Below, in pieces: positions 1 to 7,344 of a stretch of DNA of 8,194 nt. This DNA comes from an uncultured Acidobacteriota bacterium (GTDB taxonomy: Bacteria; Acidobacteriota; Blastocatellia; Pyrinomonadales; Pyrinomonadaceae): positions 1 through 8,194 of the forward strand of contig CAMLKY010000063.1 of assembly GCA_946480545.1 (NCBI GenBank). Direction: 5' to 3'. The notes below the pieces were generated by a model. The model had not been told where the DNA came from. It was given only the letters and a program-made list of their open reading frames with translations, and ran no database searches. Both the position numbers and the translations under genes were made by a program. Numbering within the stretch: position 1 is the first letter of the stretch; every line of letters starts with the position of its first letter.

Positions 1-942
1 ACCGTTGCCGATATCGTGTCGCGGGGACAGGATATGCGGAATTTCTGTCGCGACCTATTGGCGGTTTTCAGAGACCTGATGGTCTTCAAGGTTTCGGGCG
101 GCGATGCCGCGCTGGTAGAAACCTCGATGCTGACTGTCGACGAGATGAGGAAATTCGCTGCTGAGTTTGGAGAATCTGATTTTCTCCGGTTCTTTAATTC
201 GCTCTGTGATACCGAGTCGAAGCTCAAGGATGCCGCGCACCCAAGATACGTCCTCGAAACGGGACTGGTGAAGCTCACCGAGATGAAACGTGTCGCACCC
301 GTCGAAAAGCTTATCGAACGTCTCGCCGAACTCGAGCGCTTGCTCACGGGTAATGAGCAGTTGATCGCCGATGCCGCACCGGCATCGCCGGAAAAAAAAA
401 CTCTAAATTCCGAACCGGTAGTCCCTGACGAGCCGCCATCTTTCAGCCACGAATTCGAACCGGCATCACACGCGGAACCGCAACCTGGGCCGGCGATCGT
501 CGAGGCACCTGCGACAAGCATCGATCTCAGCTTTATAGACTCGATGCCGATCAAGCTGGCTCCCATCGATCCGGAAGCTCTCGAGCACGTTGAAGACACC
601 TGGCTCGACAACGCCTATGAGCGAAAGCTGGAGATGAGTGGCGACCATCTCTCGCCGATCCCGAACGCCGCCGCACTCGTCGAAGCCTTTGTCGGACGAA
701 GCTCGGTCGACTCAGCACCGCGATCCACGACTAATGGTCACGCCGCATCCGCAGCGGCACCGGCGCTTCAAACGATCTACGCACCGCCGACAATCGACGA
801 AGCTGAAGAAATATCCGATCCAGGAACCCTGCCCGAAAATGCTACCGAGGAAGAGCTGCAAGCGTACGCTGCTAATCACCCCGCTGTGAGACGTGCGATG
901 CGTGTATTCCGCGCAAAGATCGTCACCGTCACACGCACCTGA
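1..942 (+). CDS. dnaX: DNA polymerase III subunit gamma/tau, C-terminal part (5' truncated by window)
   Basis: The frame is open from base 1 and continues upstream of the window; 313 residues are visible. The first ~120 residues match the clamp-loader domain III of DnaX: VSRGQDMRNFCRDLL, FRDLMVFK, and the ETGLVKLTEMKRVAPVEKLIERLAEL helix pair that follows the AAA+ core. From about residue 125 the protein becomes a low-complexity Pro/Ala/Glu linker, as in tau tails, and ends in a short conserved-looking helix (HPAVRRAMRVFRAKIV). DnaX is the ATPase of the clamp loader that places the beta clamp on DNA; tau also bridges polymerase cores. The AAA+ domain lies outside the window. An A9 run at 392-400, at the domain III/linker boundary, is treated separately as a likely slippage site. 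The usual ybaB-recR partners do not follow; a TPM gene does. Identity is by recognition of domain III. Confidence 0.88.
   Translation, partial: TVADIVSRGQDMRNFCRDLLAVFRDLMVFKVSGGDAALVETSMLTVDEMRKFAAEFGESDFLRFFNSLCDTESKLKDAAHPRYVLETGLVKLTEMKRVAPVEKLIERLAELERLLTGNEQLIADAAPASPEKKTLNSEPVVPDEPPSFSHEFEPASHAEPQPGPAIVEAPATSIDLSFIDSMPIKLAPIDPEALEHVEDTWLDNAYERKLEMSGDHLSPIPNAAALVEAFVGRSSVDSAPRSTTNGHAASAAAPALQTIYAPPTIDEAEEISDPGTLPENATEEELQAYAANHPAVRRAMRVFRAKIVTVTRT
369..428 (+). promoter_or_regulatory. Candidate programmed slippage/frameshift site in dnaX (hairpin plus A9)
   Basis: An 8-bp perfect stem (369-376 with 380-387, loop CAC) is followed after four bases by nine consecutive A residues (392-400), in frame as GAA AAA AAA ACT. 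Losing one A puts TAA (404-406) in frame two codons after the lysines. Gaining one A, or a ribosomal -1 shift, reaches TGA at 426-428. Either event would cut the protein right after domain III, giving a gamma-like short form. An A9 tract with RNA polymerase slippage is the known mechanism for Thermus dnaX, and E. coli uses A AAA AAG with a ribosomal -1 shift. The sequence layout is seen directly; its function here is inferred. Confidence 0.6.
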
Positions 943-1015
943 CCGCCGAAGATCCGGAACAAGATTTTTTGTCTTTCGTATTCTTTCAGGATTTGACACA
1001 ATCCTTGTAATACGA

Positions 1016-1927
1016 ATGTTTAGGAACGTCGCTACGACAACCCTCAGAGGCGCTACGGTGCTTACCCTGATCTGCGTTACCGCCCTCTGGGCGATTGGTC
1101 AGGGTTCGTCCGAATGGTCGCTAAACGTTTCGCCGCTTCCGGCTCCGACTGGTCCCGTAAACGATTTTGTCGGCGTGATCGATGAGCAGGCGAAGGCCGA
1201 CCTGAACAAGAAGCTCATCGATTTCCAGCGGTCGGCCGGAGTGGAGCTTGCGGTTGCGATCATCGACACAACAGGTGACCGCCCGATCTCCGATTACTCT
1301 TTGGCAGTCTATCGCGGGTGGAAGATAGGGGCGAAGGCAGATGACAACCCCGGAGCGCTGCTCCTTATCGCGATCAATGACCGAAAGTACTTCACACAGG
1401 TTGGCAGCGATCTCGAGGACGAACTGCCGGATGCGCTGGTCGGAAGCTTGCAGAGGCAATATCTTGTCCCGGAACTCAGGAGCGGGAATTATGCGAAGGG
1501 CATCAACGACACGCTCGATGCATATATCCGAACATATCAGGAACGCAGCAGCGGAAGCGCGGCGTCGCCGACTCCAGTCCCCGGCCGTGAGAGACCCGGA
1601 CGCGTATCGCAGGGCGCGTCGTCGGCCTTCTGCTGTATTCTTATCGCCGGCGTTATCCTTCTGATCATCTTCTCGAACCGGGGTGGCAGATCCGGGGGAA
1701 GACGCGGCGGCGGTTGGGGTGGAGGATTCGGTGGTGGCGGAAGCGTTATACCGTGGATCATCGGTTCGGCCATTGCGAATGCTGCGAGCTCATCCTCATC
1801 GTCAAGCGATTGGGGCGGCAGTAGCGACTGGGGCGGCGGAGGCGATTGGGGCGGCGGAGGCGGCGGCTGGGGCGGCTTCGGCGGCGGCGGAGATGCAGGC
1901 GGCGGAGGCGCCGGTGGAGACTGGTAG
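1016..1927 (+). CDS. TPM-domain secreted/membrane protein with Gly-Trp-rich tail (YgcG-like)
   Basis: The protein is 303 residues from the ATG at 1016. That start is chosen because a hydrophobic signal-like segment (about residues 10-28) follows at once, and the longer in-frame extension back to 893 overlaps dnaX and looks non-coding. Residues ~46-175 form a TPM domain: it opens with PVNDFVGVIDEQAKADLN, continues with GVELAVAIIDTTGD and NPGALLLIAINDRKYFTQVG, and ends with GNYAKGINDTLDAYI. A second hydrophobic helix (about 204-220) follows, then a tail rich in Gly, Ser and Trp ending in DW. TPM proteins are envelope proteins; one plant homologue acts in photosystem II repair, and the bacterial role is poorly known. 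Many genomes place such genes beside lemA, and lemA lies two genes on here. No convincing Shine-Dalgarno is visible. The family call is firm; the biochemical role is not. Confidence 0.85.
   Translation: MFRNVATTTLRGATVLTLICVTALWAIGQGSSEWSLNVSPLPAPTGPVNDFVGVIDEQAKADLNKKLIDFQRSAGVELAVAIIDTTGDRPISDYSLAVYRGWKIGAKADDNPGALLLIAINDRKYFTQVGSDLEDELPDALVGSLQRQYLVPELRSGNYAKGINDTLDAYIRTYQERSSGSAASPTPVPGRERPGRVSQGASSAFCCILIAGVILLIIFSNRGGRSGGRRGGGWGGGFGGGGSVIPWIIGSAIANAASSSSSSSDWGGSSDWGGGGDWGGGGGGWGGFGGGGDAGGGGAGGDW
1808..1921 (+). repeat. In-frame 18-bp repeats coding DWGGGG, then Gly-rich tract
   Basis: Three consecutive 18-base units (1808-1825, 1826-1843, 1844-1861) encode DWGGSS, DWGGGG and DWGGGG. 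They are followed by degenerate GGW/GGF/GGGG coding up to the end of the TPM gene. Such Gly-rich tails are common in TPM/YgcG-like proteins. The repeats are prone to length variation. Confidence 0.75.
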
Positions 1928-1933
1928 CCGCGT

Positions 1934-2016
1934 TAGTTTCTAGCTCCTGGTTTCTAGTTTCTAGTTACGGAAGCTAGCAACTAACTAGAAACTCGGAACT
2001 AGAAACTCGGAACTGG
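1934..2016. repeat. Palindromic heptad-repeat cluster between the TPM and nucleotidyltransferase genes
   Basis: Five successive 7-mers run from 1934 to 1968 (TAGTTTC, TAGCTCC, TGGTTTC, TAGTTTC, TAGTTAC). After a short spacer, complementary-sense 7-mers run from 1983 to 2010 (AACTAGA, AACTCGG, AACTAGA, AACTCGG), ending with AACTGG at 2011-2016. The 14-mer AACTAGAAACTCGG is exactly duplicated (1983-1996 and 1997-2010). A perfect 12-bp inverted pair (1956-1967 with 1982-1993) gives a hairpin with a 14-nt loop. The cluster fills nearly the whole gap and abuts the downstream ribosome binding site. It resembles the short tandemly repeated (STRR) elements of cyanobacteria in style, not in sequence. 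Confidence 0.8.
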
Positions 2017-2020
2017 AGAG

Positions 2021-2752
2021 ATGCAGAATCAATTTGCAGAGTTCATTGACGATCTTCGGGCGACGCACGGCAGAAATCTGGCGTCGGTAATTCTTTACGG
2101 GTCAGCAGCCAAGGGCGATTTCGTCGCGAGACAGTCGGACTACAATATCCTGATCGCGCTGCGTAATATTACGCCGCAGGACCTGAGAAACGCCCATGCC
2201 TCGATCCGGGAGTGGAGCAAGCTTGGACATCCGGTGCCCGTCTATTTCACGGTCGCCGAACTTCGGGACGCCGCCGACGTATTCCCAATCGAGTTCCACG
2301 AGATGGAAGCCGCGCGGAAGGTACTCTACGGCGAAGACGTGCTCGAGGGTGTGAAGATCTCCGACGAGAATCTGCGGCATCAGGTCGAGTATGAGCTGCG
2401 TAGCAAGCTCATCCTCCTGCGGCGACAGTTTATTCCGGCGTCCGAATCCGTGGCGGCACTGAAGTCGCTTATGGCGGAGAGCCTGGCGAGCTTCGCGGTA
2501 CTGTTTAGGGCGGTGCTGTTACTTGGCGGGATCGATCCGCCGCTCGGGAAACACGAGGTACTTGCGTTGATCGCCGACCAGTACGGGCTTGACGGGGCGA
2601 CCTTTGAAAAGATCTTTAACATTCGTGAGAACAACTTCACCGAGACGCTGGATGAGCGTTCGGCAAACGAGCTGTTCGCTAGTTATTTGGAGCAGATCGA
2701 GCGCGTCATTGACGCGGTCGACAAAGTAGGACGGGCTGTCCGCTCGTCGTAA
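2021..2752 (+). CDS. Nucleotidyltransferase-fold protein with D-x-N in place of D-x-D
   Basis: A 243-residue cytosolic protein. Its N-terminal third has the Pol beta/MNT nucleotidyltransferase signature: VILYGSAAKGDF (Gly27-Ser28), then a strand with SDYNILIAL (residues 39-47). The metal-binding D-x-D is D40-Y-N42, so the second acid is Asn. The following strand (PVPVYFTVAEL) offers no obvious third Asp. The middle has DVFPIEFHEMEAARKVLYGEDVLEG and the rest is helical (ELRSKLILLRRQ onward). I recall a widespread uncharacterised family with SDIN-type motifs and the same VFPIEF segment, so the Asn may be a family trait and not decay. GGAG at 2015-2018 lies only 2 nt before the ATG, closer than usual. 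The substrate is unknown. It sits between TPM and lemA genes, probably co-transcribed with lemA. Confidence 0.75.
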   Translation: MQNQFAEFIDDLRATHGRNLASVILYGSAAKGDFVARQSDYNILIALRNITPQDLRNAHASIREWSKLGHPVPVYFTVAELRDAADVFPIEFHEMEAARKVLYGEDVLEGVKISDENLRHQVEYELRSKLILLRRQFIPASESVAALKSLMAESLASFAVLFRAVLLLGGIDPPLGKHEVLALIADQYGLDGATFEKIFNIRENNFTETLDERSANELFASYLEQIERVIDAVDKVGRAVRSS

Positions 2753-2770
2753 CGCGTACGATGGGAGAAC

Positions 2771-2790
2771 AACGGACCCGGGAGTCCGTT
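2771..2790 (+). promoter_or_regulatory. Intercistronic hairpin before lemA
   Basis: A perfect 7-bp inverted repeat (AACGGAC at 2771-2777, GTCCGTT at 2784-2790) with a 6-nt loop lies between the nucleotidyltransferase stop and the lemA ribosome binding site (2797-2802). Only a short, interrupted T stretch follows, so it may be a partial terminator, an mRNA processing or stability element, or chance. Confidence 0.4.
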
Positions 2791-2808
2791 CTTAACAAGG
2801 AGAAGCTG

Positions 2809-3462
2809 ATGAAACGAGGAATTTTGTTATCGATTGCGTTGTTCGCGGCATTCGGTCTGAGCGGCTGCAGCTACAACGAGCTGACAGCAAAGCAGCAGAA
2901 CGTCAAGACGAAGTGGGCGAACGTTGAGAGCGCCTTGCAGCGGCGTGCGGATCTGGTGCCGAATCTTGTCGAGACCGCCAGGATGGCCGGCGTTCAGGAA
3001 CAGGAAGTATTCGGACAGATCGCCGAAGCACGGTCGCGGCTGCTGAATGCTCAGCAGCAGGCTCCGGCAGGTGAGGCCGGTGACCGGACTCCCGAACAGC
3101 GCCAGCAGATCATGGACGCTGCGAACACGTTCGGAGGAACGATCGGACGCTTGCTGAGCTTGCAGGAAAGCTATCCGCAGCTTAGATCGGTCGAAGCGTT
3201 CATGAACGTCCAGACCGAGTTGGCCGGGACAGAGAATCGGCTTAATGTTGCTCGACAGGATTTCAATACCGCGGTTGGCGACTACAACACGGCGAGGAAC
3301 TCGTTCCCCGCGGTCCTTACGGCCGGGCTACTGGGGTTTAAGGAAGAGACTCCGTTCGCGGCGGATCCGAGTGCAAGACAAGCACCGAGTGTCGGAGACG
3401 CTAATTCGCTTCGTAGAAATCAGACCGCACCCGCGAATGCACCGGCGGCCCCGGCTAGATAG
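2809..3462 (+). CDS. lemA: LemA-family lipoprotein
   Basis: The start at 2809 is set by AAGGAG (2797-2802) 6 nt upstream and by the signal peptide that follows; the in-frame ATG at 2761 would bury that signal. The product is 217 residues. Residues 1-20 are a lipoprotein signal (MKRG, hydrophobic core, lipobox LSGC with Cys20), so the protein is probably lipid-anchored. The LemA signature follows: AKQQNVKTKWANVESALQ, RRADLVPNLVETA, LSLQESYPQLRSVEAFMNVQ, TELAGTENRLNVARQDFN and the final AVGDYNTARNSFP. The C-terminal ~30 residues are a Pro/Ala-rich low-complexity tail. LemA proteins form antiparallel helical bundles of unclear function and often neighbour TPM or HtpX genes, as partly seen here. 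The gene is convergent with the next one, 5 bp away. Confidence 0.9.
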   Translation: MKRGILLSIALFAAFGLSGCSYNELTAKQQNVKTKWANVESALQRRADLVPNLVETARMAGVQEQEVFGQIAEARSRLLNAQQQAPAGEAGDRTPEQRQQIMDAANTFGGTIGRLLSLQESYPQLRSVEAFMNVQTELAGTENRLNVARQDFNTAVGDYNTARNSFPAVLTAGLLGFKEETPFAADPSARQAPSVGDANSLRRNQTAPANAPAAPAR

Positions 3463-3467
3463 GTTTC

Positions 3468-3782
3468 TTAGAATCCGCGCGAGTTACACATCGAGCAGTG
3501 ATCACAAGGCTTGCCGTTCGGCTCGAACGTGCAGGCCTTTTCTTTTTGAAGGCCGGCAAAGATCTCGTCAGCGATTGCTTCGGCGACGGCGAACTTATCG
3601 AGGCTTGGATGATTGGTCTGTAGCTTCTGTAGAGGCGCGGGATCGACGATAGCAGCTTCGACCTTATCGAGCCGGTGGTTCAGCTTTTCGATGCTGGCGT
3701 AGATCAAAGCAAGCTCCGGCGAGCGATCCTCGGATTCAAGAAGCTTCGCTATTTTTTCCGCAAGAGATTCTGACTTACTCAT
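3468..3782 (-). CDS. Small hypothetical protein with C-terminal Cys motif (C-x8-C-x2-C-x2-C)
   Basis: A 104-residue protein. The N-terminal two thirds are charged and helical (SLAEKIAKLLES, LALIYASIEKLNHRLDKVEAAI), consistent with a short coiled coil. The C-terminus is CTFEPNGKPCDHCSMCNSRGF, in which four cysteines plus a histidine could bind a metal, probably zinc. Its ATG (3782-3780) overlaps the last 8 bases of the upstream four-helix-bundle gene (ATGAGTAA), so translation is likely coupled. I do not recognise a named family. The 3' part of the gene contains the lemA terminator on the other strand. Confidence 0.7.
   Translation of the reverse strand: MSKSESLAEKIAKLLESEDRSPELALIYASIEKLNHRLDKVEAAIVDPAPLQKLQTNHPSLDKFAVAEAIADEIFAGLQKEKACTFEPNGKPCDHCSMCNSRGF
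3506..3547 (+). terminator. Rho-independent terminator for lemA, embedded in the opposite-strand gene
   Basis: The left arm 3506-3520 (AAGGCTTGC then CGTTCG) pairs with 3524-3539 (CGAACG, one bulged T at 3530, then GCAGGCCTT), with a 3-nt loop and one G-T pair. The stem is about 15 bp and runs into the tract TTTTCTTTTT (3538-3547). Orientation and distance, about 45 bp past the lemA stop, fit termination of plus-strand transcripts. The same bases encode part of the C-terminal Cys motif of the convergent gene. Confidence 0.75.
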
Positions 3783-4122
3783 GTGAGGTCTTCGAGATCG
3801 ATGACGTCAATCTTATCATCTCAACACAATCATCGTTCAATGATACGTGCTGCTCGTGACTTATGAACTTCCCTTTCTCCAGCAACAAAAGCCATAACTC
3901 AGTGTCAAGACCCTTCTGTAGCGCAACGTACATCTCGTTCGAAAACCCTTCCCGGCTTCGCGAATGAAGAGCAGCCTTGACGTGCTTTGCTATGTAAGTT
4001 CCCGAAAAGAGGACCTGTTTAGAAAGAACGAACTCTTTCTTTTCTTCTGTCAGGTATTTGTATAGAGCGACGATGCGGAGTGCGAACTTGATAGCCTTAT
4101 CAAGAACAATACTTTCGGGCAT
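3775..4122 (-). CDS. Four-helix-bundle protein of the S23 / 23S rRNA intervening-sequence family
   Basis: A 115-residue protein. The start at 4122 is supported by GGAGG (plus-strand 4129-4133) 6 nt upstream. The features match the S23/IVS-encoded family: an N-terminal VLDKAIKFALRIVALYKYL helix, then VLSKQVLFSGTYIAKHVKAA, then FSNEMYVALQKGLDTELWLLLL, and a closing helix with DDCVEMIRLTSSI. Members were first found inside intervening sequences of 23S rRNA genes, but many, like this one, are free-standing. The fold is shared with the Avd accessory protein of diversity-generating retroelements; no reverse transcriptase is present here. Function is unknown. It forms a two-gene overlapping unit with the Cys-motif protein and is preceded by a heptad-repeat hairpin. 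Confidence 0.8.
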   Translation of the reverse strand: MPESIVLDKAIKFALRIVALYKYLTEEKKEFVLSKQVLFSGTYIAKHVKAALHSRSREGFSNEMYVALQKGLDTELWLLLLEKGKFISHEQHVSLNDDCVEMIRLTSSISKTSHE

Positions 4123-4151: not shown

Positions 4152-4227
4152 TTTCTTCAGTTGATAGTTAAGAGTTACAAGTGGGTAGTTTCTGAAACTA
4201 TCAACTTGAAACTATCCACTGAAGAAA
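4152..4227. repeat. Palindromic heptad-repeat cluster downstream of the BMC operon
   Basis: Five 7-mers beginning AGT run from 4159 to 4193 (AGTTGAT, AGTTAAG, AGTTACA, AGTGGGT, AGTTTCT). They are followed by 7-mers in the opposite sense from 4196 to 4223 (AACTATC, AACTTGA, AACTATC, CACTGAA). The outer ends TTTCTTCAGT (4152-4161) and ACTGAAGAAA (4218-4227) are perfectly complementary. After one mismatch a further 7 bp pair (4163-4169 with 4210-4216). No T tract follows on either strand, so it is not a standard intrinsic terminator. It fills most of the 114-bp gap between the last BMC-P gene and the S23-family gene. Confidence 0.8.
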
Positions 4228-4236
4228 AATATATCC

Positions 4237-4509
4237 TCACAACAAGTCAACATAGTCGACCACCCCGACTATCGCGGAGTCGATGGCGGCACCGGGGCGG
4301 CCCGTGGCGGCGGTCGATGCGGACCAGCCTTCCTGGGCGATGATCACGATGTCGCCTTCGCCCGAGTTAACCGAATCGAGGGCAACACACGTGTAATCCA
4401 TGTCCTCGCCCTCGGGAGTGATCTGACGACACAGCATAACGCGCGTTCCCTCGTAACGCTGATTCTTCTGCGTGGCGACGACGTTTCCGATGACGCGGGC
4501 GATAAGCAC
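4237..4509 (-). CDS. BMC-P pentameric vertex protein (EutN/CcmL family), third copy
   Basis: A 90-residue protein of the EutN/CcmL family, whose pentamers cap the vertices of bacterial microcompartments. It begins LIARVIGNVVATQKNQRYEG and has the strand VALDSVNSGEGDIVIIA in place of the usual AvD-GAGxGE segment. It ends IDSAIVGVVDYVDLL, matching the family's terminal PvDaaIvGIVD. The start codon is GTG at 4509, 6 nt after the stop of the preceding BMC-P gene. No good Shine-Dalgarno is visible, so translational coupling is likely. It is the last gene of the shell operon. Confidence 0.87.
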   Translation of the reverse strand: MLIARVIGNVVATQKNQRYEGTRVMLCRQITPEGEDMDYTCVALDSVNSGEGDIVIIAQEGWSASTAATGRPGAAIDSAIVGVVDYVDLL

Positions 4510-4515
4510 AATGAT

Positions 4516-4797
4516 CTACGATTCTGTATTCAGGACGTGTGCGTCGGAATCGATGATCCCGACGATCGTGCAGTCCGTCGGCGTCTCGTCGCGCTTAAAA
4601 GGAAACGAAGCTTCTTTCCCGCGACACCAGAAGACAAGCTCGCCGACACCGGCGCCGACCGCGTCGAGCGCGATCATCGGCTGGCCCTTAGCCTTCAGCC
4701 TGGCGTCAAGCGTTTGTACGAGCAGGAACTTCCTGCCGAAAAGCGACTCGTTCTTGACCGTCGAGACCACTGTCCCGATGACGCGTGCGATCTGCAT
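4516..4797 (-). CDS. BMC-P pentameric vertex protein (EutN/CcmL family), second copy
   Basis: A 93-residue protein. The N-terminus MQIARVIGTVVSTVKNESLFGRKFLLVQ and the central IALDAVGAGVGELVFWCRGKEAS are clear EutN/CcmL motifs, and TPTDCTIVGIIDS is the terminal family strand. It differs from its two paralogues in the CRGKEASFPFKRDE loop and in a short hydrophilic C-terminal extension (DAHVLNTES). The ATG at 4797 is 3 nt after the stop of the TPR gene, indicating one transcript and coupled translation. Three distinct BMC-P proteins in one locus is the pattern of PVM-like microcompartments. Confidence 0.88.
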   Translation of the reverse strand: MQIARVIGTVVSTVKNESLFGRKFLLVQTLDARLKAKGQPMIALDAVGAGVGELVFWCRGKEASFPFKRDETPTDCTIVGIIDSDAHVLNTES

Positions 4798-5819: not shown

Positions 5820-6089
5820 TTATTTGATGAAATCTATCGTGTCGATGACGCCGATGATAGCCGAATCGACGGGGCAATCTTTGTTGCCTTCCGCCATTCG
5901 AGCGCTCGAGCCGCCGACCACGATCACCCTCTCATGGAAACCGGCCCCGACGGTATCGACCGCAACGACATAGCCGTTCTGGTCCGATCCGTCGAGGTTG
6001 ATCGGCTTAACTATTAGAAGCTTTTTGCCTTGGAGACGTTCGTCCTTTTGCGTGGAGACTACAGTGCCCAGGATACGACCGATTATCAT
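5820..6089 (-). CDS. BMC-P pentameric vertex protein (EutN/CcmL family), first copy
   Basis: An 89-residue protein and the most canonical of the three. It has IIGRILGTVVSTQKDERLQGKKLLIVKP, then VVAVDTVGAGFHERVIVV, GGSSARMAEG, and PVDSAIIGVIDTIDFIK. In the usual GAGxGE segment the residue before Glu is His (GAGFHER), a small departure. The start at 6089 has only a weak upstream purine stretch (GAGCAG on the coding strand). The gap to the BMC-H gene is filled by a heptad-repeat hairpin. The stop codon overlaps the ribosome binding site of the TPR gene. Confidence 0.9.
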   Translation of the reverse strand: MIIGRILGTVVSTQKDERLQGKKLLIVKPINLDGSDQNGYVVAVDTVGAGFHERVIVVGGSSARMAEGNKDCPVDSAIIGVIDTIDFIK

Positions 6090-6098
6090 CTGCTCGTG

Positions 6099-6171
6099 AA
6101 TCGTAAATAGGAAATCGTCAATCGTGAAGAAACAGAAGAATCTATTTACGATTTACGATTCTCTATTTCCT
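6099..6171. repeat. Palindromic heptad-repeat cluster between BMC-H and BMC-P genes
   Basis: Four 7-mers beginning AAT run from 6099 to 6126 (AATCGTA, AATAGGA, AATCGTC, AATCGTG). Four 7-mers of opposite sense run from 6144 to 6171 (ATTTACG, ATTTACG, ATTCTCT, ATTTCCT). AATCGTAAATAG (6099-6110) and its exact complement (6142-6153) form a 12-bp stem. The last heptad overlaps the BMC-H stop codon (6170-6172). As an intra-operon hairpin it could affect mRNA stability or the ratio of hexamer to pentamer protein; this is inference. Confidence 0.8.
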
Positions 6172-6448
6172 ACCTCATTACGACGGGAAGCGTATCGTCA
6201 ACGGCGGAATGTGGGCGTGGAATGACATGGACACTGACAAGCTCACCGACGCGGCGAGCGGCAGCCGCTCCGGCATCTGTTGCAGCTTTTACTGCCGCGA
6301 CGTCGCCTCGAACAATTGCCGTGACAAACCCGGCCCCGATCTTTTCATAGCCGATGAGCTGTACGTTGGCTGCCTTTACCATGGCGTCGGCCGCCTCGAT
6401 CATCGCGACGAGGCCTTTGCACTCGACCATTCCTAATGCTTCCTGCAT
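6170..6448 (-). CDS. BMC-H hexameric microcompartment shell protein (PduA/EutM/CcmK family)
   Basis: A 92-residue single BMC domain protein that forms the hexameric facets of a microcompartment shell. It has [29 protein letters not shown], with the edge lysine at residue 25. The pore loop is KIGAG (residues 36-40; PduA-type KIGGG has Gly at the fourth position here replaced by Ala). The core strand [19 protein letters not shown] and the terminal VHVIPRPH follow. The ATG at 6448 is preceded by AGGAG (plus-strand 6458-6462) at 9 nt. It is the only BMC-H gene in the window and no BMC-T gene is seen. It follows the aldolase gene by 48 bp in the same direction. Confidence 0.93.
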
Positions 6449-6496: not shown

Positions 6497-7291
6497 TTAA
6501 CCCAATTTCGCCGCCTGGCTCAAAAGATCTATCAACTCTTCACGAGTGAACGAGACCTTTCCGCCATTCAGACCGCCGTTGGCAGATTTATCGAGCGAAC
6601 ATGTGACCTCGGTCTCATGTAGATAGCCGCACGCCTGGCACCGGGCCTCTTCGGTAAGGTAGCCGGCCTTTTCGCGAATATTGATGAGTTTCTCGATCGC
6701 ATCTTTGGGCAGATCGTTCGCCCCTCCGAGCGCCTTTGCAAGGATAGCGATCTTCGCCGTGTGCTCGAGAGTTTCAAGGCGATCAAATGCCTGCCAGAGG
6801 TTTTCGCCATACGCCACCGCTCCGTGATTTGCCATCAGCAAAGCATTGTGATGCTTTACGAAAGGACGCATAGCCTCGGTCAGCTCATCCGTCGAAGGAG
6901 TCCCATAATCGGTAAGCGGGACGCATCCGAGCGTGAGTATCACTTCTGAAAGTATCGGCTTATCGATAGCGAGGCCGGCGACTGCAAACGCAGTCCCATG
7001 CGGTGGGTGGGCATGGCAGACGGCACGGATCTCCGGTCGTTCGCGATAGATCAGCAGATGCATCGCAAGTTCCGATGACGCACGCTTATCCGTCTTTGGC
7101 TTGCCTTCCATATCGGTCAGGGCAAGATCCGACGGTGCCATGCGGCCTTTGCACATCATCGTCGGTGTCGCGAGCACCGTGTTGTCATCGAGTCGGATAC
7201 TGACATTACCATCCGAAGAGACGACGTAGCTCCTCTCGTACAGCAGCCTTCCTATTTCACAAATAAGTTCGCGGGCTTGAGATTCGTCCAT
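6497..7291 (-). CDS. Class II aldolase (FucA/RhaD-like) with probable C-terminal encapsulation peptide
   Basis: A 264-residue protein from the ATG at 7291; a GTG at 7306 is in frame but lies inside a repeat. The zinc-dependent class II aldolase core is intact: DGNVSIRL, then catalytic Glu74 (SSELAMH), zinc ligands His93 and His95 (HAHPPHGTAF) and His156 (LMANHGAVAYG). Numbering is offset by one from fuculose-phosphate aldolase (E73, H92, H94, H155). Such enzymes split fuculose- or rhamnulose-1-phosphate into lactaldehyde and DHAP. Beyond the ~215-residue FucA length there is an extra region with C218-x2-C221 and Cys231. Then comes a flexible linker (SANGGLNGGK, ~236-245) and an amphipathic helix FTREELIDLLSQAAKLG, the layout of a microcompartment targeting peptide. 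It heads the shell gene cluster. The exact sugar phosphate cannot be told. No clear Shine-Dalgarno is visible. Confidence 0.85.
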   Translation of the reverse strand: MDESQARELICEIGRLLYERSYVVSSDGNVSIRLDDNTVLATPTMMCKGRMAPSDLALTDMEGKPKTDKRASSELAMHLLIYRERPEIRAVCHAHPPHGTAFAVAGLAIDKPILSEVILTLGCVPLTDYGTPSTDELTEAMRPFVKHHNALLMANHGAVAYGENLWQAFDRLETLEHTAKIAILAKALGGANDLPKDAIEKLINIREKAGYLTEEARCQACGYLHETEVTCSLDKSANGGLNGGKVSFTREELIDLLSQAAKLG

Positions 7292-7300
7292 AAACGAAGA

Positions 7301-7344
7301 AACCACAGATTAGCACACATCCATCTGTGCATTAACCTGTGGTT
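7301..7344. repeat. Long imperfect hairpin just upstream of the aldolase start
   Basis: AACCACAG (7301-7308) pairs with CTGTGGTT (7337-7344), TTA (7310-7312) with TAA (7333-7335), and GCACA (7313-7317) with TGTGC (7326-7330), leaving an 8-nt loop and small bulges. About 16 bp pair in total. It resembles dispersed CACAGATTA-type repeats seen in many bacterial genomes, and probably belongs with the other intergenic palindromes here. It lies 9 bases from the aldolase ATG and could form in the mRNA leader. Confidence 0.65.

Follow-up and report, generated by a model that had tools for sequence, protein, structure and literature searches.

The window, by which we mean the whole 8,194-nucleotide stretch of Acidobacteriota DNA that was analysed, begins inside dnaX, the gene of the DNA polymerase III tau subunit, and carries further genes on both strands. 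The features are listed below by position.

1-942, plus strand: 3' part of dnaX (DNA polymerase III tau), an open frame of 313 aa; the gene start lies upstream of the window
4-324, plus strand: DnaX domain III, the clamp-loader end common to gamma and tau (Pfam PF12169, residues 2-108)
369-387, plus strand: 8-bp hairpin CGATGCCG-CAC-CGGCATCG, by direct reading; not conserved and judged incidental
391-400, plus strand: predicted slippage site, G plus nine A's (GAA AAA AAA A..), by direct reading
401-942, plus strand: tau-specific linker and C-terminal region, translated only if the frame is kept (open frame)
404-406, plus strand: TAA, the stop for loss of one A or gain of two, by direct reading
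426-428, plus strand: TGA, the stop for gain of one A or a -1 ribosomal shift, by direct reading
4237-4509, minus strand: EutN/CcmL vertex protein, recognised by eye only
4516-4797 and 5820-6089, minus strand: EutN/CcmL vertex proteins, recognised by model
6170-6448, minus strand: BMC shell protein, model match
6497-7306, minus strand: class II aldolase-like protein, models below their own cut-offs

A TPM-domain protein and a LemA-family protein flank a 243-aa frame that has no Pfam match (893-3462, plus strand), and the minus-strand gene at 3775-4122 encodes a PF05635 '23S rRNA-intervening sequence' protein; the window contains no Rfam rRNA match. The minus-strand genes between 4237 and 7306 make up a microcompartment gene group. 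Imperfect inverted repeats lie between genes at 1935-2014, 4152-4227 and 6094-6161, with 17-33 bases per arm and arms that are 79-94% complementary. The three look alike in style by eye and are possibly terminators or members of a small repeat family. An Rfam scan of the window at the gathering threshold and a tRNA scan gave no match.

The dnaX frame is open from 1 to 942 and runs 180 codons beyond a tract of nine A's (A9). Pfam PF12169 matches its residues 2-108 with an E value of 2.5e-9, and the NCBIfam gamma/tau models match it below their own curated cut-offs because the dnaX of the window is partial. The encoded protein is 57-61% identical to the DnaX of L001, one of the two starting loci of the comparison described below. 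By direct reading, the nine A's at 392-400 stand between G391 and CTCTAAATT, and the frame across the tract is GAA AAA AAA ACT CTA AAT, that is E K K T L N. With one A removed it becomes GAA AAA AAA CTC TAA, in which one Leu codon separates the tract from the TAA at 404-406, and the predicted gamma tail is EKKL, or EKKKL with two extra A's. The frame entered on gain of one A ends at the TGA at 426-428, which is codon index 12 when the GAA codon is counted as 0. The in-frame A9 and both of these stops had been reported in a preliminary description of this DNA and were borne out by direct reading; its placing of the tract exactly at the domain III/linker junction was right to within a short stretch, although not exactly, as the tract codes residues 131-133, about 22 residues past the PF12169 end. 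The tract is the sole run of at least eight A's or T's within the window. Counted as overlapping 8-mers on both strands, it gives 2 matches where 0.32 are expected, a number also reached in 14 of 200 shuffles, so that run length alone, in one window, is only mildly unusual.

The comparison with relatives started from two loci found in a genome scan, L001 (titled Acidobacteria gp4 AA15) and L002 (titled Pyrinomonadaceae bacterium). The genomes searched were 119 of L001's family and 162 of its class, those 119 included, and the dnaX loci examined were 105 from the family (L006-L110) and 39 further ones from the class (L140-L178); genomes with no usable dnaX linker match, 14 of the 119 in the family and 4 of the 43 further class genomes, were left out. 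Among the 145 rows, the window included, 64 have at least nine A's at the domain III/linker junction and 81 do not. The tract is A9 in 60 of the 64, A10 in three and A11 in one, and none is shorter. A maximum likelihood tree (quick method) of domains I-III was built from 144 rows after L104, too short with 66 aligned residues, had been dropped. All 64 tract rows, the window included, form one clade with an SH-aLRT support of 91, the remaining 80 tree rows carry no tract, and no tract-less row falls inside the clade. The tract label changes once on this tree, as compared to a mean of about 47 changes in shuffles. The window sits inside the tract clade, and its nearest row is L006, which is the same gene as L001. 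Our results show that the tract had a single origin and was retained in all examined genomes of its clade.

The linker is otherwise poorly conserved within the tract clade. Over 59 rows, the mean major-base frequency is 1.00 in the tract and 0.82 at positions +1 to +6, against 0.39 in the far flank upstream of -12 and 0.41 in that downstream of +15. The phase of the tract is identical in all 60 A9 rows. In this phase A9 forces AAA for both Lys codons, and AAA at both is true of the A9 rows by definition, since these rows were chosen for having A9; independent evidence beyond that selection is the lack of any clade row without the tract. Elsewhere in the 60 A9 genes, Lys is encoded by AAA in 1018 of 1749 codons and by AAG in 731. 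Runs of nine are also rare in the genomes counted (n=12): the number of overlapping 9-mers per genome, both strands included, was 4 to 53 in eleven of the twelve and 141 in G009, the dnaX locus of which has 37% GC. In the A9 rows the tract is followed by C in 60 of 60 and then by T in 58 of 60, which makes ACT the next Thr codon in those 58, whereas ACT accounts for 281 of 2009 Thr codons (14%) elsewhere in the same genes. These patterns in the sequence indicate that selection acts on the bases and not on the residues alone.

Whichever way the frame shifts, a stop close behind the tract is kept in most rows. Loss of one A brings a stop into frame at the second codon after the tract in 54 of 60 A9 rows (TGA in 24, TAA in 23, TAG in 7); one Leu codon precedes it in 53 of these 54, and gamma is predicted to end in EKKL in 53 and in EKKR in one. 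With gain of one A, 59 of 60 rows have a stop no later than codon index 12, and 46 of 60 no later than index 7. Both stops are near in 55 of the 60. As a null, the same peptides were recoded 2000 times with each gene's own synonymous codon use, and every observed count exceeded the maximum so obtained: for the loss-frame stop the recodings gave a mean of 25.8 and a maximum of 36 (observed 54), for the gain-frame stop at index 12 or less a mean of 31.5 and a maximum of 46 (observed 59), at index 7 or less a mean of 24.1 and a maximum of 38 (observed 46), and for both stops near a mean of 12.3 and a maximum of 22 (observed 55). Both stops were found in 52 of 59 cases at the tract, but in 44 of 2369 at shifted control anchors elsewhere in the same genes. 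Where the loss-frame stop stands, the tree requires at least 23 codon changes, yet only five between stop and non-stop. The 64 clade species share ancestry, so that counts over species are not independent, a problem that is eased, not removed, by the synonymous null and the 23 codon changes. The comparison of these sequences indicates that the stops in the two shifted frames are under separate selection. The preliminary description had proposed an alignment of dnaX from related genomes as a test, in which the A tract and both early out-of-frame stops should be conserved against a variable flanking linker. The tract was kept, with a varying linker, in every examined member of the clade, and the stops in most members (54 of 60 for loss, 59 of 60 for gain).

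Six of the 60 rows (L017, L030, L031, L034, L053 and L107) have no loss-frame stop at the canonical place. The stop comes one or two codons later in L030 and L053, at index 8 to 11 in L107, L034 and L031, and not before index 68 in L017; all six have a gain-frame stop at index 5-7. The CT after the tract is still present in five of the six; the constraint on CT is not explained by the stop itself. It is possible, and we offer it tentatively, that the lineage fixed transcriptional slippage in dnaX once, at its root, and has maintained it in a finely specified form, and that the C and T after the tract are held for a further reason, either because they tune slippage or because the fixed -KKL end that they give gamma has a role in itself, for example as a docking tail or in stability.

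A constraint on the peptide alone was considered, in which the linker would open with a conserved motif, EKKTL, to which the tract belongs, and both the A-richness and the stops would be by-products. A protein database search for gamma-length products returned 4623 hits at E up to 1e-100, of which the best 120 were examined; EKKT is present in 113 of these best 120, and TL follows KK in 54 of the 60 A9 rows, as such a motif would have it. But every clade row holds at least nine A's in spite of the AAG codons used for Lys elsewhere in the A9 genes (731 of 1749), none of the 2000 synonymous recodings of these peptides gave as many stops as were observed, and all three stop codons are found at one position, with at least 28 changes in the residue that follows TL. 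L055, moreover, reaches the loss-frame stop through a different peptide, ACG GTG A. The peptide-only constraint was rejected by the synonymous recoding null, and we regard it as highly improbable.

The A9 run is very probably a programmed RNA-polymerase slippage site that gives tau and gamma from the one dnaX gene. RNA polymerase would realign the transcript on the homopolymer, and mRNAs with nine A's would be made together with mRNAs that have other numbers. Transcripts with nine A's, or with a number exceeding nine by a multiple of three, would encode full-length tau; those one A short or two A's longer would reach the stop one codon past the tract and give a gamma ending in ..EKKL or ..EKKKL, respectively, and those with one extra A would meet the second stop a few codons later. 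The predicted gamma, of roughly 410 residues as compared to roughly 600 for tau, would retain clamp-loader domains I-III and be without the tau-specific C-terminal part. The frame after the tract continues for a median of 204.5 codons in 58 A9 genes, and the unshifted frame is free of early stops in 62 of the 64 tract rows, the exceptions being L068 and L097. The tract, its phase, its single origin and its retention in the examined genomes are shown by the sequences, as is selection for the stops; the occurrence of slippage, its mainly transcriptional nature, the ratio of the products and the accumulation of both proteins we infer from sequence.

Programmed -1 ribosomal frameshifting on A_AAA_AAA, with gamma ending at the TGA at 426-428, could act alone or be added to RNA-polymerase slippage, and this we consider unlikely. 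The heptamer A_AAA_AAA is correctly phased in 60 of 60 A9 rows, the stop of the -1 frame is kept close in 59 of 60, and the dnaX of E. coli uses such a shift according to passages of PMC5009743. Such a shift, however, leaves unexplained the stricter stop of the other frame, present at one fixed place in 54 of 60 rows, and according to the same passages the E. coli site A_AAA_AAG is much more shift-prone in E. coli than A_AAA_AAA. The stimulators that would go with it were also sought. A Shine-Dalgarno (SD)-like tetramer between -18 and -4 of the tract was found in only one of the 64 genes, against 111 of 1146 control windows. The segment downstream of the tract in the window has no clear stem-loop (z 0.87), nor do the downstream 60-mers of the 64 tract genes show one, with a mean z of -0.31 and four of 64 below -2. 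Windows over and just after the tract gave mean z values of -0.31 to -0.71 in the 64 genes, and the downstream structure is weak, not strictly nil, so there may be a weak folding tendency. A downstream stem-loop and an internal Shine-Dalgarno sequence for a ribosomal shift were thus not found as conserved elements in the 64 genes. As a separate observation, the stretch from -18 to -4 looks depleted of SD-like tetramers, as though the tract genes avoided having an internal ribosome-binding stimulator there. The stricter stop in a frame that a -1 shift does not need and the absence of the stimulators favour transcriptional slippage, to which some ribosomal slipping on the same A run may add. Passages of Atkins et al. 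2016 (PMC5009743) point out that Thermus has separate tRNAs for AAA and AAG, which might be why it is RNA polymerase and not the ribosome that slips there. Twelve tract genomes were searched here by pattern, and a tRNA-Lys with anticodon CUU was found in all ten in which pattern hits were fetched; an AAA-reading tRNA was not located by pattern, and the UUU-type hits fetched included no tRNA gene.

The hairpin upstream of the tract was present as the preliminary description had claimed, with 8 bp at 369-387 and four bases, CCGG at 388-391, between it and the tract. Its proposed role as an RNA-polymerase-pausing arrangement did not hold. Compared with shuffles of a 41-base segment that includes the A tract, the hairpin of the window has a z of -2.59; compared with shuffles of the 45 bases upstream of the tract, it is ordinary (z -0.40). 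Over the 64 tract genes, the 45-mers upstream show no more folding than their shuffles do (mean z 0.05, two of 64 below -2), and the predicted upstream stems vary in length and in spacing from gene to gene. The hairpin was rejected as a conserved element on the lack of excess folding energy over the 64 genes. Slippage that depends on such a hairpin acting on RNA polymerase, i.e., stem-loop-mediated slippage, would fit the stable 8-bp stem that ends four bases before the tract of the window, but with stems that differ between genes and no enrichment in the clade it is very unlikely. Of the earlier proposal, the dual output of tau and gamma by slippage at A9 has passed the conservation test, and the part that invoked the hairpin has failed.

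Several loci deviate from a single A9. L052 combines A10 with an AAT codon, and both of its early stops are retained. In L068 (A11) and L097 (A10) the unshifted frame stops just after the tract, so that tau would need a shift, and in L230 (A10), outside the clade, the unshifted frame likewise ends just after the tract. These three may be dnaX genes of the two-ORF type as described in passages of Antonov et al. 2013 (PMC3711429), or possibly homopolymer assembly errors. L027, and also L002, has two A9 tracts that share a phase and lie 18 bases apart; judged by eye, a frame that had lost one A in the first tract of L027 would also reach the stop after the second. In a phylum sample of 70 dnaX loci, which was not random (30 best hits and 40 picked from the listed matches in 297 genomes, some for a short frame; four already in the class set and eight running off the contig), an A9 or A10 lies within 60 bases of the aligned domain end in seven, namely L230, L236, L238, L239, L247, L261 and L264. 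The tracts of the last six are outside the clade, and several have early shifted-frame stops by eye. From these sequences, A tracts in dnaX seem to have arisen more than once in the phylum, and the same six loci are probable cases of separate origins of dnaX slippage.

Homopolymers are error-prone, and a chance homopolymer or an assembly artefact without function was also weighed. The frame is shifted at the tract in two of the 64 rows (L068 with A11, L097 with A10) and in three of the best 120 database proteins, of which P0075 ends in EKKL and P0041 and P0102 end in a tail like that of the gain frame. Four others among the best 120 (P0001, P0067, P0072 and P0099) end before or near the tract position, have no EKKT and look cut off. 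The DNA or RNA source of these short database proteins is unstated, so they are indistinguishable from sequencing or assembly errors and are no evidence for slippage. Against an artefact stand the exact count of nine A's shared by 60 of the 64 rows, which come from different genomes, the one origin with no loss seen, and the rarity of A9 in the genomes counted. Conservation has already refuted this reading, and its probability is practically negligible.

The primary paper on slippage in Thermus dnaX is reportedly that of Larsen et al. 2000. As described in passages of PMC1088944 and PMC5009743, the dnaX of Thermus thermophilus has A9 on the sense strand, tau in a single open frame and nearby stops in both other frames. 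Three sequence features of this type are found in the window, i.e., an in-frame A9 after the clamp-loader domains, a continuous tau frame and both nearby stops. The Thermus tract, however, lies seven-eighths along dnaX according to a passage of PMC1088944, whereas here it lies at about residue 406, about two thirds along; the lineage here is Acidobacteriota; and slippage has been demonstrated in Thermus, whereas here it is predicted from sequence. The Thermus passages stress extra A's, whereas the stop kept most strictly here is the one reached when one A is lost or two are gained. E. coli dnaX resembles the present gene in that gamma ends about two thirds along (passages of PMC5009743) and in its early -1 stop. 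It differs in its site, A_AAA_AAG as compared to A_AAA_AAA_C here, with C after the tract in the window and in 60 of 60 A9 rows; in the present genes an SD-like stimulator is found in 1 of 64, a clear downstream stem-loop is lacking and the stop of the other frame is the stricter one. The two-ORF dnaX genes in the passages of Antonov et al. 2013 (PMC3711429) share the long A tract, often A10, but there a shift is needed for tau, whereas in the window tau is the unshifted product, with no stop in the unshifted frame just after the tract. The stem-loop-mediated slippage of a Roseiflexus IS element is similar in the nascent-RNA stem-loop beside the slippage run, and differs in the run itself (T5C5 there in passages of PMC5009743, A9 here) and in that the hairpin here is not conserved.

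The GeneTack survey took in three Acidobacteria genomes according to a passage of PMC3711429. Our literature search, which worked by title or abstract start and had most subscription papers outside its coverage, found no paper on dnaX slippage in Acidobacteriota. Judged by its sequence, the dnaX of the window is a well-supported further case of predicted dnaX slippage as in Thermus. Its unusual part is the quality of the evolutionary evidence, i.e., one origin, no loss among the examined genomes and separate selection of the stops. Baranov et al. 2005 stated, in a passage of PMC1088944, that it is difficult to assess slippage by comparing sequences when the product is truncated. Dense genome sampling together with a synonymous-recoding control makes such a comparative test possible, and it could be repeated for the dnaX of other phyla. 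The importance of the short gamma form was controversial even in E. coli, as a passage of PMC5009743 puts it. That the site was gained once and retained in each of the 64 sampled genes, with stops placed in both shifted frames, argues strongly, on evolutionary grounds, for the importance of gamma in this lineage.
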